A stretch of 64,000 bases of DNA from an uncultured Granulosicoccus sp. Lineage in GTDB: Bacteria > Pseudomonadota > Gammaproteobacteria > Granulosicoccales > Granulosicoccaceae. The position numbers and the translations under genes are program-made. The notes under the pieces were generated by a model. The model saw only the letters and a list, made by a program, of their open reading frames with translations, was not told the DNA's origin and searched no databases. The stretch's first letter is position 1. Every line of letters begins with the position of its first letter. The stretch covers positions 1 to 64,000 of the forward strand of contig CALKLO010000005.1 of assembly GCA_937991945.1 (NCBI GenBank), in the 5' to 3' direction. Positions 16,477-51,712 of the stretch are shown here, one piece after another.

Positions 16477-17349
16477 TCATTGCACTGGCCCTGATTGCGG
16501 TGACTGGATTCCCAGCTGCGCCGCAACACTTCTTCGTCCGTATCCTCCAAGCGCAAATCCATTGCTGTAGCGCATATCAAACGTTGTTGGACCGCGCGAA
16601 TCTCCAGCATTTGTGGACGTTGCTGACCCATCTCCTAATTGAGCAAACACATCAAGAAATCGGCTTAAGCGAAGGTCTCTATTTTCATATCCCAGCTTGA
16701 CTGTCACCTGGTCGGACAGCTCAAGCGTTTGCGAACCGCGCTTGTCTTCCCGAAGCACGTCGATGGAGACATTGAAGCGTGCAAGCCTTGCATCATAATC
16801 CCTGAACGTGTCAAGTAAAACGGTATGCCGCCCAGGCGATCCGGAGACCAAAGGTAACGTGCTAAACACCTCATTCCATTCCGTGTAACGTGGGTTATTC
16901 AACAACAATTGAGGTGGTGTGAATAGCTCTAGTCGCTTACTGATCAAACTATCGTCATTCCATCGAGCCGTGGGTTCGTGTTCTTCAACATGAACTTCAA
17001 TTCTCGATGGCCAAACACGACTCACGCGTGCATGAGCAACCCAAGGCAGATCATCGACTGCACGTCTCACACTATCGATATCCAAACTATAGAATCCTGC
17101 ACCCGTGTACTTTTTAACAACACCAATTAACGCATCTCGATCTTCATAATCGACAGTACCCAGTATGTCCACATTGGTGACAGGGAAACGATCAGGATCT
17201 TGCGCTAAACGGGAACCAAAAACACACAAGATTAATAATAAAATTAACCCTATTGCTCCCACACTCCAGCGCGTCGACAAGGATACGCGAGGTGCAGCCA
17301 AAGGCAACACCGGTCCGCTTCCTAAGAGCTGTTCTGTGGTGGTACTCAT
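16477..17349 (-). CDS. ftsQ: FtsQ, bitopic divisome protein
   Basis: A 290-residue protein with a cytoplasmic N-terminus, one membrane segment near residues 29-49, a POTRA domain (FPVTNVDILGTVDYEDRDAL) and a periplasmic beta domain ending near residue 265. FtsQ bridges early and late division proteins through FtsB and FtsL. Its ATG overlaps the ddlB stop by four bases (ATGA). Sequence conservation is low outside the POTRA region, as usual, but position between ddlB and ftsA is decisive. Confidence 0.93.
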   Translation of the reverse strand: MSTTTEQLLGSGPVLPLAAPRVSLSTRWSVGAIGLILLLILCVFGSRLAQDPDRFPVTNVDILGTVDYEDRDALIGVVKKYTGAGFYSLDIDSVRRAVDDLPWVAHARVSRVWPSRIEVHVEEHEPTARWNDDSLISKRLELFTPPQLLLNNPRYTEWNEVFSTLPLVSGSPGRHTVLLDTFRDYDARLARFNVSIDVLREDKRGSQTLELSDQVTVKLGYENRDLRLSRFLDVFAQLGDGSATSTNAGDSRGPTTFDMRYSNGFALGGYGRRSVAAQLGIQSPQSGPVQ

Positions 17350-47528: not shown

Positions 47529-47834
47529 TTATATCAGGCCGTCAACCTGACAAACGCCCGCAAGCTGACGAAGGCTGTCTGGAATCTGATTAAAAGTGAC
47601 AGAATGTTTTTCCGAACGGGCAATAGCCAGCCATTCGATCATCAGGGCAAGCCCAACACTGTTGCTCTCAGACACACCTGATAGATTAATTTCTAACTGC
47701 GGATTGCCTTTAATGTGCTTTGCAACCTCACTAAGTGCATCTCTGGCCGTAACAAAATTCAAGGCGCCAGACACGTGACAAATATGACCGTCGAGCTTGA
47801 TTGTGGCACCCCTTGCGTCACTCACTTGGGTCAT
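47529..47834 (-). CDS. mlaB: MlaB, STAS-domain subunit of the Mla transporter
   Basis: A 101-residue STAS protein that stabilises the MlaFE ATPase. The STAS core is LEINLSGVSESNSVGLALM, with a serine at the position often phosphorylated in STAS proteins. It overlaps the mlaC stop by four bases and is last in mlaFEDCB. Confidence 0.9.
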   Translation of the reverse strand: MTQVSDARGATIKLDGHICHVSGALNFVTARDALSEVAKHIKGNPQLEINLSGVSESNSVGLALMIEWLAIARSEKHSVTFNQIPDSLRQLAGVCQVDGLI

Positions 47835-48436
47835 GACCTATTGTTACGCTCTTTAAGCGTTTCGATGAGCCCAGCAATTCCGCCTTTATCGATCTCATTG
47901 GAGAATGCAGAACGATAGCTTGTCACCAAACTAATGCTGTTGACCTCGATGTCATAGATTGACCAGCCATCTTTGTCTCTGAGCTTGTAGACGACTGGGA
48001 CATCACTACCACCAGATTGACTGAAAGTGGATCGGACAACCGCTCGGTCTTCTCGGTCTTCAGGGCGGAACGGCTCGAAATTAATCGACTCGCCACTGTA
48101 TTCAGCCAAAGCACCGGTGTAGGTATTGAGCAACAACGTTTTGAACTCGACAACCAACTCGACTTTTTGATCAGCGTCAGCTTTACGCCAAAACTTACCC
48201 ACCGCAAGCTTGGTCATGGTGTTGAAATCTAAATTTGGCACGATTAACTCGTCAACCCGAGACTGCAAGTATTCGGAGTCAGCTTGAATCTTGTCACCAT
48301 CGTTTTTAAGTACATCAAGCATTGTCGTGATGGACTCGACAACCATTTTTTGAGCTGGATGGTCCTCAGCACGAACCATAGAACTGGTGAAGCTGAGAGC
48401 AATCGCTACAAGTACCACAGAAAGATTTTTAAACAT
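47831..48436 (-). CDS. mlaC: MlaC, periplasmic phospholipid shuttle
   Basis: A 201-residue periplasmic protein that carries phospholipids between MlaA and MlaFEDB. I chose the ATG at 48436, which gives a clean signal peptide ending in MVRA and has AAGAG nine bases upstream; an ATG three codons earlier abuts that site, and the frame opens further upstream. Family matches include VGKFWRKADADQKVELVVEF and VNSISLVTSYRSAF. Confidence 0.93.
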   Translation of the reverse strand: MFKNLSVVLVAIALSFTSSMVRAEDHPAQKMVVESITTMLDVLKNDGDKIQADSEYLQSRVDELIVPNLDFNTMTKLAVGKFWRKADADQKVELVVEFKTLLLNTYTGALAEYSGESINFEPFRPEDREDRAVVRSTFSQSGGSDVPVVYKLRDKDGWSIYDIEVNSISLVTSYRSAFSNEIDKGGIAGLIETLKERNNRS

Positions 48437-48517
48437 CACATTCATCTCTTGTATAGACCTACCTGACGCATTATTTTGCATCAGGCATTTAAATAGGTTT
48501 CCAGGGGAGCTGGATCA

Positions 48518-48979
48518 TTAGCTTCCACCAGAACGGCTGAACAGAACCTGACCAATCAGTCGCTCGAGAACAATAGCGGACTGAGTTAGCGTTATTTCGT
48601 CATCATTTTGCAGAAAATCCTCTTCTGCGCCTGGATCCAAACCAATGTACTGCTCACCGAGCAACCCAGAGGTGTAGATGCTGGCGGTGGTATCCAGCGG
48701 AAATGCATCGAAGGCCTTATCTAGCCTTAGAGTCACCATGGCTTCAAAGTTCTCTGGATCGTAAATAATGCGGGTCACTTCACCTACCCGAACACCACTG
48801 GCCGACACTCGAGCGCGCTCTTTCAAGCCACCAATGTTTTCAAATTTCGCTGTGAGCGTATAGCCCTCAGAGCTGTTGAGGCTGGTCAAATTGCTCACTT
48901 TCATGGCCAACACAAACATTGCTAGCAAAAACAGCAACATAAACAGACCAACCAAAATCTCAGACGTACGTGAATTCAT
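48518..48979 (-). CDS. mlaD: MlaD, MCE-domain subunit of the Mla transporter
   Basis: A 153-residue protein with an N-terminal membrane helix (residues 7-27) and one MCE domain (YTLTAKFENIGGLKERARV, then GVRVGEVTRI). MlaD hexamers form the lipid channel above MlaE. The TSGLLGEQYIGLDPG segment is diagnostic. Length is normal. Confidence 0.95.
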   Translation of the reverse strand: MNSRTSEILVGLFMLLFLLAMFVLAMKVSNLTSLNSSEGYTLTAKFENIGGLKERARVSASGVRVGEVTRIIYDPENFEAMVTLRLDKAFDAFPLDTTASIYTSGLLGEQYIGLDPGAEEDFLQNDDEITLTQSAIVLERLIGQVLFSRSGGS

Positions 48980-48999: not shown

Positions 49000-49776
49000 T
49001 TAAAACATGACTGCTGTTAGTAGAAAATCAAGGCCTAATATAGCCAGCGACGAATAAACAACAGTACGAGTTGTGGCGCTACTGACACCTTCCGATGTCG
49101 GTATGCAATCAGCCCCTTCGAATATGGATATCCAGCTCACTACGAATCCAAAGACCAAACCTTTGACAAGTCCGTTGCAAACATCGTGAGTAAAACTAAC
49201 TGAACTGTGCATTTGCGACCAATAGGCGTTGGCATCTACACCTAAGACTTCGACGCCTACTAAGTGCCCACCCATAACACCCACGGCACTAAACATCGCG
49301 GCTAGCATGGGCAAAGCGATGAAACCGGCCAAAAACCGAGGAGCAAATACTCGCTTAAAGGGGTCAACCGCCATCATCTCGAGACCTGATAGCTGCTCAG
49401 TTGCCTTCATTAAGCCAATTTCAGCAGTCATCGCTGAACCGGCCCGACCAGCAAATAACAACCCTGTTACAACGGGGCCTAGCTCTCTCACTAGAGTTAA
49501 GGCGACTAGCGTGCCGACGCGCTCTTCTTGGCCAAAATCAATGAGAGTGTTGTAGAACTGTAATGAAAGCACCATGCCGACGAACAAGCCTGACACTAGA
49601 ACAATGGATAGGGTCATGACGCCAGAGGCGTGCAACTGTTTGACTAACAACGATGGCCGCTTGACCAAGGAAGCCAAGGCTGCCACCAGATGGAACAAGA
49701 AAAGCGTCGCCCGCCCTAGTCGCTCCAGCTTGCCCAGCCAATAGGCTCCAAACTTTTGCAGAAAGTTGCTCATCAC
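49000..49776 (-). CDS. mlaE: MlaE, permease of the Mla transporter
   Basis: A 258-residue inner-membrane permease with about five membrane segments. Conserved parts include LVRELGPVVTGLLFAGRAGS and ATEQLSGLEMMAVDP, the coupling region to MlaF. It overlaps mlaF by four bases. Confidence 0.96.
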   Translation of the reverse strand: MMSNFLQKFGAYWLGKLERLGRATLFLFHLVAALASLVKRPSLLVKQLHASGVMTLSIVLVSGLFVGMVLSLQFYNTLIDFGQEERVGTLVALTLVRELGPVVTGLLFAGRAGSAMTAEIGLMKATEQLSGLEMMAVDPFKRVFAPRFLAGFIALPMLAAMFSAVGVMGGHLVGVEVLGVDANAYWSQMHSSVSFTHDVCNGLVKGLVFGFVVSWISIFEGADCIPTSEGVSSATTRTVVYSSLAILGLDFLLTAVMF

Positions 49777-50582
49777 AATTTCCCGAGAAGCTGGGCTTCG
49801 TAGTCCGGAGCCGGTGCTTGAAAAGGCACCGGGCCATCGGGCTTACCTTGTAAAAATTGTTGTATCCATTCTGAGGTGGAAGATTTCAGCTGTTCTGGCG
49901 AACCAGCCTCAACAACGATTCCTTCTGAAATAACCACTAAATAGTCTGAAATAGACATTGCCTCTTCGAGGTCGTGCGACACCATAAGACTGGTTAACCC
50001 AAGTGCTGTGTTTACGGTTTGAATCAACTCTAACAACACACCCATAGAGATGGGATCCTGCCCTGTAAAAGGTTCGTCGTACATAATCATCATGGGATCG
50101 AACACCAGCGCTCGCGCCAAAGCCGCTCGACGAGCCATGCCGCCTGAGAGCTCAGCAGGTGAGAAATCTTTCGCACCGCGCAATCCAACAGCGTGCAAAC
50201 GCATGAGTACCAAATGACTGATTAAACTCTCTGGGAGATCAGTGTGTTCTCTTAATGGGTAGGCAACGTTCTCAAACACACTCAGATCTGTTAACAACGC
50301 ACCGGATTGAAACAACATGCCCATTCGTTTGCGCAGATCGTATAGTTTGTTTCGAGATAGCTCACCTACATTTAAGCCATCGACAACGATACTGCCGCTG
50401 GCGGCCTTAAGCTGGCCACCAATCATTTTTAAGAGGGTGGTTTTTCCGGTACCGCTAGGGCCGAGAATAGTCGTGACTTTGCCGCGTGGAATATCAACGC
50501 TCAGCCCACGGAAAATCGCATTGCTCCCCCGTGAAAAATGGAGATCGCGAATCTTAACCAGCGCCTCTCCTTCTTCAGACAT
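49773..50582 (-). CDS. mlaF: MlaF, ATPase of the Mla phospholipid transporter
   Basis: A 269-residue ABC ATPase. Walker A is GPSGTGKTT, the signature is LSGGMARRAALARAL and Walker B is MIMYDEPFTGQDP. MlaF powers phospholipid movement between inner and outer membranes. It is first in mlaFEDCB and divergent from mlaA across 257 bases in which I found no confident promoter. Confidence 0.96.
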   Translation of the reverse strand: MSEEGEALVKIRDLHFSRGSNAIFRGLSVDIPRGKVTTILGPSGTGKTTLLKMIGGQLKAASGSIVVDGLNVGELSRNKLYDLRKRMGMLFQSGALLTDLSVFENVAYPLREHTDLPESLISHLVLMRLHAVGLRGAKDFSPAELSGGMARRAALARALVFDPMMIMYDEPFTGQDPISMGVLLELIQTVNTALGLTSLMVSHDLEEAMSISDYLVVISEGIVVEAGSPEQLKSSTSEWIQQFLQGKPDGPVPFQAPAPDYEAQLLGKL

Positions 50583-50839: not shown

Positions 50840-51712
50840 ATGACTGCATTCAAACGTCTCGTAATAACCGCTCTTATTGGCTTGTCAGTAACAGCCTGCG
50901 CAACCGGCAAACCAACGGGACCTGTCTATGACCCATTCGAAAATACGAATAGAAAAATATACAGTTTTAATACAGCACTCGACAATGCAGTTTTAAAACC
51001 TGCCGCAAAAACATATCGGTACATTCTTCCCGATATCGTCGAGATTGGTATTGGTAATTTTTTTAGCAACCTAGACGATATCAATGTCATCGCCAATGAC
51101 TTGCTGCAAGGTAAGTTTCGCCAAGCAGGTTTGGACACCGGCCGGTTTTTATACAATACAACAGCTGGCTTATTGGGCTTTATTGACGTCAGCACCAAAG
51201 TCGGATTAGTCAAACATAATGAATCCTTTGGGCAAACCTTAGGCGTTTGGGGGGTTGGCGAAGGGCCGTTCCTCATGTTGCCTTTATTCGGACCGGCCAA
51301 CGCTAGATCCACCGTTGGCATGGTCGTTGAAAACGCCACGACCAACGTCCCTAACCTTGTTGTAGACGATGACCCAACGCGCTATGGGATAACGGCTCTG
51401 AATGTCATCGCACTGCGCGCACGACTATTGTCCGCTGGCAACCTCCTCAACAGCGCAGCCCTTGACCCCTACCTCCTGTTTCGCGATTTCTGGGTTCAGC
51501 AGCACCGTCGCGCCACCGTAGATGGCAAAGTGCCCGTGGCCATTGGGGAACAATCTTCCGGCGATGAGCTAGATGAGCTAGATGAGCTGGACGAGCTGGA
51601 CGAGCTGGACGAGCTGGACGAGCTGGACGAGCTGGACGAGCTGGACGAGCTGGACGAGCTGGACGAGCTGGACGAGCTGGACGAGCTGGACGAGCTGGAC
51701 AGCTTGAACTAA
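50840..51712 (+). CDS. mlaA: MlaA (VacJ), outer-membrane lipoprotein, with an acidic tandem-repeat tail
   Basis: A 290-residue lipoprotein that removes misplaced phospholipids from the outer leaflet and passes them to MlaC. The ATG at 50840 gives a 19-residue signal with lipobox SVTAC; an upstream GTG/ATG extension is unlikely. The VacJ core is intact: YDPFENTNRKIYSFN, NDLLQGKFRQAGLDTGRF, GLLGFIDVS, FGQTLGVWGVGEGPF, LPLFGPANARSTVG. After residue about 240 comes the unusual tail, 15 copies of Asp-Glu-Leu, then DSLN. The tail is encoded by a 9-bp tandem repeat. The gene is divergent from mlaFEDCB, uniting all six mla genes at one locus. Confidence 0.94.
   Translation: MTAFKRLVITALIGLSVTACATGKPTGPVYDPFENTNRKIYSFNTALDNAVLKPAAKTYRYILPDIVEIGIGNFFSNLDDINVIANDLLQGKFRQAGLDTGRFLYNTTAGLLGFIDVSTKVGLVKHNESFGQTLGVWGVGEGPFLMLPLFGPANARSTVGMVVENATTNVPNLVVDDDPTRYGITALNVIALRARLLSAGNLLNSAALDPYLLFRDFWVQQHRRATVDGKVPVAIGEQSSGDELDELDELDELDELDELDELDELDELDELDELDELDELDELDELDSLN
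51563..51697 (+). repeat. Fifteen-copy 9-bp tandem repeat inside mlaA
   Basis: The array encodes (Asp-Glu-Leu)15. Units 1-2 are GATGAGCTA, unit 3 is GATGAGCTG and units 4-15 are identical GACGAGCTG. A decayed unit (GAC AGC TTG) follows. Because the unit is 9 bp, copy-number slippage would change tail length without shifting the frame. Confidence 0.97.

Follow-up and report, generated by a model that had tools for sequence, protein, structure and literature searches.

In an uncultured Granulosicoccus sp. (assembly GCA_937991945.1) the gene for the outer-membrane lipoprotein MlaA ends in a minisatellite, which raises the question of whether the repetitive tail is a by-product of DNA slippage or a working part of the Mla lipid-transport system. 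The window, as we call the whole stretch of 64,000 nucleotides analyzed here, contains an exact run of fifteen 9-bp units by direct reading of the sequence, in the 5' to 3' order GATGAGCTA (two copies), GATGAGCTG (one copy) and GACGAGCTG (twelve copies), units 4 to 15 thus being identical. The array is in the reading frame of mlaA, and because it is followed by one more GAC and then by AGC TTG AAC TAA, the protein ends in (DEL)15-DSLN (Table 1). Tandem Repeats Finder placed the repeat at 51566-51704 (period 9, 15.6 copies, 97% matches), and this was the only array scoring above 50 in the window. Across the 3.83-Mb assembly, all 14 matches to a (DEL)2D pattern lie inside the MlaA array, and the reversed control of that pattern gave no match in the same assembly.

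Table 1 Features of the mla locus in the window and the evidence on which each was assigned
Feature	Coordinates	Strand	Description	Evidence
mlaB-like short ORF	47529..47834	-		position and length
mlaC	47831..48481	-	lipid shuttle of the periplasm, candidate ligand for the MlaA tail	PF05494, 164 bits; phmmer to solved MlaC chains
mlaD	48518..48979	-	inner-membrane MCE protein	PF02470
mlaE	49000..49776	-	permease	PF02405, 239 bits
mlaF	49773..50582	-	ATPase, divergent from mlaA	PF00005
mlaA	50840..51712	+	outer-membrane lipoprotein, 290 aa, Cys20, C-terminal (DEL)15 tail; ATG at 50840, stop at 51712	PF04333
Linker	51515..51562	+	last core helix to array (TVDGKVPVAIGEQSSG)	sequence, alignment
Array	51563..51697	+	(Asp-Glu-Leu)15 array of fifteen 9-bp units, putative tandem motifs for MlaC docking	sequence, conservation, selection
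Tail end	51698..51712	+	Asp-Ser-Leu-Asn-stop; codons 1-3 form a degenerate sixteenth unit	

The encoded protein matches Pfam family PF04333 with 234 bits (cut-off 25) over profile positions 2-193 of 195. Its Cys20 is invariant in all 14 aligned sequences, and a lipobox, VTAC, was identified by eye. The tail of 65 residues contains 33 Asp or Glu and a single Lys or Arg, which bears out the claim of an earlier note on this DNA that an in-frame minisatellite adds (Asp-Glu-Leu)15, and with it about 30 negative charges, to MlaA; the array also sits, as that note had it, where other MlaA proteins carry a short C-terminus, and this is often acidic. An AlphaFold2 model of the protein (14-row alignment) was poor, with a mean pLDDT of 59 and values of about 38-52 in the tail, and uninformative on binding, and a promoter and terminator scan around mlaA gave nothing reliable. 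The gene adjoins a divergent mlaFEDCB cluster, with the mlaB-like short ORF as its mlaB member. Downstream of mlaA lie a SIS/CBS-domain protein, which we take to be KdsD, and then LptC-, LptA- and LptB-like proteins, these names being in part presumptive.

According to published E. coli work, residues 227-251 of MlaA suffice to bind the periplasmic shuttle MlaC with a KD of 57 µM (PMC10245069), truncations as well as the exchanges I241N, L245N and I248N lead to loss of function and to weakened or abolished binding, and charge reversal at D243/D244 or D247/E251 breaks the contact between MlaA and MlaC (PMC10245069, PMC10719372). D243 and D244 touch K84 and R90 of MlaC, and MlaA D243R/D244R is rescued by MlaC K84D/R90D (PMC10245069, PMC10719372). 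The E. coli tail is described as a bait whose flexible linker might let it extend across nearly half the periplasm (PMC10719372), and the beta6-beta7 loop of MlaD (F118, E119, D120, E122) as using the same cleft of MlaC (PMC10245069, PMC11289387). The earlier note had the short C-terminus of other MlaA proteins contact the porin partner and the periplasm; the published partner of this tail is the shuttle MlaC (PMC10719372, PMC10245069).

The tail of E. coli K-12 MlaA, read from the genome as AQAIQDDLKDIDSE, contains DDLKDID, which has the same acid-acid-phi-x-acid-phi-acid order as DELDELD in the array, and its L245 and I248 are spaced three residues apart, as are successive Leu residues of the array. 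By phmmer, the stretch qssgdeldeld of the window protein was aligned to QAIQDELKDID of the solved MlaA chain 5nuo_D. The window MlaD has AEEDFLQNDDE near the position of the E. coli beta6-beta7 loop, as placed by eye, so that MlaC may meet similar acidic-hydrophobic ligands at either end of its route. On the order of residues in the E. coli tail, the phmmer alignment and the acidic-hydrophobic beta6-beta7 loop of E. coli MlaD, the array can be read as a series of tandem, overlapping docking motifs; written as [DE]-phi-x-x-phi-[DE], the motif has 14 overlapping matches in the window tail, C-terminal after the linker. Counting against a docking function, the strict three-residue period gives no straight hydrophobic face on an alpha-helix, and DEL units also occur in one ORF other than MlaA (G013:C281).

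On the side of the shuttle, MlaC of the window carries R and K at the columns of E. coli K83 and R90 (the published K84 corresponds to residue 83 of our translation), and among 15 aligned MlaC proteins of the family a basic residue occupies the K83 column in 13 and the R90 column in 10. The net charge of these 15 sequences, which are partial, is -1 to -12 throughout, compared with +4 for E. coli MlaC. A simple charge bait is disfavoured by this net acidity, though the local basic patch is mostly kept, and the strict conservation of Leu in the tail suggests that the contact is more than electrostatic.

MlaA is present in 50 of 57 related genomes, and 38 MlaA proteins were recovered from 34 of the 36 Granulosicoccaceae genomes; no MlaA was found in G010 and G020, with completeness of 63 and 76. 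Nearly all tails in the family end in acid-acid-hydrophobic triplets. Most of the genus has long DEL arrays and other relatives have DEL blocks with short linkers between them, as in G023 (PDELDELDRLDALDNATK repeated) and G031 (PDELDLLLGDDPAPAQE repeated), while G005 and G016 carry acidic tails with Phe and two motifs only. Three genomes (G029, G030, G033) encode two or three MlaA paralogues, every tail of which is acidic and hydrophobic-spaced. The [DE]-phi-x-x-phi-[DE] motif occurs once or more in 36 of the 38 family proteins (19.9 expected from shuffled tails). The two without it are from G015, whose array contains a stretch of N in the assembly, and from G031, in which the regular expression found none. 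The tail is conserved family-wide, which answers the check for a tail in relatives' MlaA that the earlier note had suggested. An assembly artefact as the source of the array was ruled out, as these 36 proteins come from separate assemblies, the one-contig genome G023 being among them.

Tails in the family are also longer than elsewhere (median 65 vs. 22 residues), and at least three motifs are found in 32 of 38 family proteins vs. 2 of 82 other MlaAs. The latter comprise 81 proteins from other gammaproteobacterial families plus the E. coli protein, drawn from 70 of 103 listed MlaA rows (30 loci plus 40 regions, mostly in order of E-value), 16 outgroup proteins (5 overlapping the 70) and E. coli; four with a weak tail anchor (G041, G057, G071, G078) are counted among them with no motifs. 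At least one motif is present in 21 of the 82, against 7.1 expected on shuffling each tail, an enrichment that is partly post hoc since the motif was written after the tails had been viewed and was guided by the E. coli residues. As written it is absent from the other 61, and hence it is not universal.

A 30-base (DEL)3D pattern was detected in 28 of the 57 relatives, all 28 of them Granulosicoccaceae. Class-wide it occurred in 4 of 369 gammaproteobacterial genomes, in MlaA each time: three are Granulosicoccaceae, whereas G091 comes from a different family and has the match at the end of its MlaA (...NLADELDELDELDELDELDNSMS). The single positive among 299 genomes across the phylum is the source genome itself. 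After filtering by anchor and length, 37 of 38 MlaAs from the family and 74 of 82 from elsewhere remained, and a midpoint-rooted FastTree phylogeny was built from these 111 cores with their tails removed. The 37 family sequences all fall into a single clade (SH 0.904), and G091, G227 and G248 make up a separate one (SH 0.918) that groups with array-less lineages. This separation implies two or more origins of the array, or else many losses. A search for further relatives of G091 and G248, in the few genomes of those families, gave no MlaA beyond G091, G227 and G248. Two contigs from a viral collection have short DEL stretches, in short frames (55 and 41 aa) with no MlaA core.

The earlier note anticipated length variation between strains; copy number varies between species (one genome per species), qualifying runs in family MlaAs ranging from 3 to 22 units. 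The note's idea that the tail is important and might modulate activity is plausible. The array interrupts a contig or scaffold in 4 of the 36 family genomes. G017 and G019 each have two contig ends within it, the partner contigs holding the downstream gene (61.8% and 71.6% identity, respectively, to that of the window), a contig of G002 starts in the array, and G015 has its run of N there; because of these breaks the count of 15 units in the window is provisional. As to the recent expansion assumed in the earlier note, the DNA has been recently homogenised, twelve of fifteen units being identical, but the tail itself is found throughout the family and is no recent local novelty.

The relation between DNA and peptide is clarified by the differences among units. 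In 338 units from 30 arrays, codon differences from the consensus of the respective array were 289 synonymous vs. 63 non-synonymous (82%), whereas in neutral simulations the synonymous share averaged 39-50%, with 57% as the highest value. The simulations kept the consensus units, numbers of changes and inclusion filter of the real arrays, a unit being included, in data and simulation alike, when at least 2/3 of its residues matched DEL. The simulated neutral spread is too narrow since units of one array share ancestry; counting distinct units once per array, which lessens this problem without removing it, gave 224 vs. 59 (79%; neutral maximum 58%), with synonymous exceeding non-synonymous differences in 30 of 30 arrays. 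The modal unit varies between species. Of the 338 units, 333 have Asp as first residue and 325 have Leu as third, but only 291 have Glu as second. The peptide is under purifying selection. The mostly synonymous differences and the near-invariant Asp and Leu indicate that the DNA slips and homogenises and that the peptide is selected: the DNA units turn over and become homogeneous within each genome, and the peptide stays.

The genomes of these relatives tend generally to form 9-bp arrays. In 400,000 bases of G023, 3 of 10 tandem-repeat rows have period 9, and at 16544-16796 this genome has 28 perfect copies of CTGACCTTG inside a minus-strand open frame of 1289 aa. Other 9-bp arrays, several at contig ends, were seen in G024, G015, G011, G018, G002 and G006 (LPE, KEL, ADQ, VDE, LDS and SAL, SEV). 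The ORF of G013:C281 mentioned above (about 1601-2161) has DELDELDELDEADELDELDEADEL near its C-terminus, and the ORF directly downstream of it resembles, as we presume, valyl-tRNA synthetase. A genome-wide 9-bp satellite was rejected for the source genome, where a sample of 260,549 bases gave 8 tandem-repeat rows, all with periods other than 9; contig C17 of this genome has, at 67-296 near a contig end, a 12-bp unit repeated 19 times that reads (TTDS)n in one frame. These samples establish that background 9-bp arrays exist in relatives, yet they leave the MlaA pattern unexplained.

One alternative is a neutral minisatellite formed by slippage at a tolerant C-terminus and functionless in both sequence and length. 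Such a reading would accommodate the arrays elsewhere in relatives, several of which lie in no evident gene (LPE, KEL, ADQ, VDE and SEV readings), the 28-fold repeat of G023 and the near homogeneity of the array in the window. It is disfavoured by the substitution pattern, with its synonymous excess in every array, and the recurrence of the same pattern at the same position in 36 of 38 family proteins and the lack of period-9 rows in the sample of the source genome argue against it as well; we regard it as very improbable. A different possibility is that the tail binds cations (Ca2+ or Mg2+ of sea water) or serves solubility in salt, the exact partner being irrelevant. The acidity of about half of its residues would fit, and so would the net acidic MlaC of the family, as a sign of general acidity. 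A charge-only tail would not need Leu, however, and Leu, near-fixed at every third place, is almost as constant as Asp while the second acidic position is freer, which makes this explanation unlikely.

We give similarly little credence to a length-setting tether, in which MlaC would dock at one site and the copies would lengthen the reach, possibly towards the inner-membrane MlaFEDB. The range of copies per qualifying run agrees with it, as do the linkers parting the short DEL blocks of G023 and G031 and the E. coli bait with its flexible linker and its potential reach of nearly half the periplasm (PMC10719372), but a pure spacer needs no Asp and Leu in every unit. The reading that we prefer, and consider rather probable, is that the array is an amplified MlaC-docking motif, the copies forming an MlaC-catching arm on a flexible linker. 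The docking segment would have been multiplied, mostly by 9-bp slippage, to between several and about 20 overlapping copies, and the long arm would offer MlaC many equivalent docking registers. Slippage would both supply and homogenise the copies, with selection retaining Asp-x-Leu, and repetition may raise the capture and rebinding of MlaC, lengthen the arm and perhaps hold several MlaC molecules. The arm is probably multivalent; we infer that it binds MlaC, that one tail takes up several MlaC molecules or speeds their rebinding, and that its length matters. Only tentatively do we entertain a polyvalent MlaC rail, perhaps spanning much of the periplasm, on which several MlaC would sit per tail or one would slide along equivalent registers. 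Empty shuttles would in that case be concentrated at the outer membrane, and slippage of the 9-bp repeat would let evolution quickly adjust how fast lipids are recycled.

An MlaC-docking array of this kind would be relevant to two questions, namely by what means MlaA catches MlaC in its proper form and why the low affinity of a single tail, 57 µM in E. coli (PMC10245069), is enough in the cell. Natural MlaAs with 2 to about 20 putative docking copies provide a titration series for avidity, reach and the direction of lipid transfer. The case also provides a bacterial example of a minisatellite with amino-acid selection acting on its units. We found no report of a repeated MlaA tail in the open-licence literature on MlaA/VacJ, MlaC multivalency and Granulosicoccus. 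The single docking segment is known; what appears to be new is its minisatellite-encoded array form under amino-acid selection.

Compared with known systems, the window tail has in common with the tail of E. coli MlaA (227-251) the protein itself, the C-terminal place after a flexible linker and the order of acidic and aliphatic residues, but the latter is one copy of about 9-14 residues, whereas the window MlaA has 15 tandem, minisatellite-encoded, putative docking copies. With the beta6-beta7 loop of E. coli MlaD the tail shares acidic beside hydrophobic residues as a ligand for MlaC; the loop is single, lies on the inner-membrane side and is unrepeated, in contrast to the repeated MlaA array. 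Variable-number tandem repeats with in-frame units, the number of which can be changed by slippage, are familiar from bacterial surface proteins. The MlaA array differs from these in being periplasmic and probably partner-binding, and in belonging to a housekeeping lipid-transport protein.
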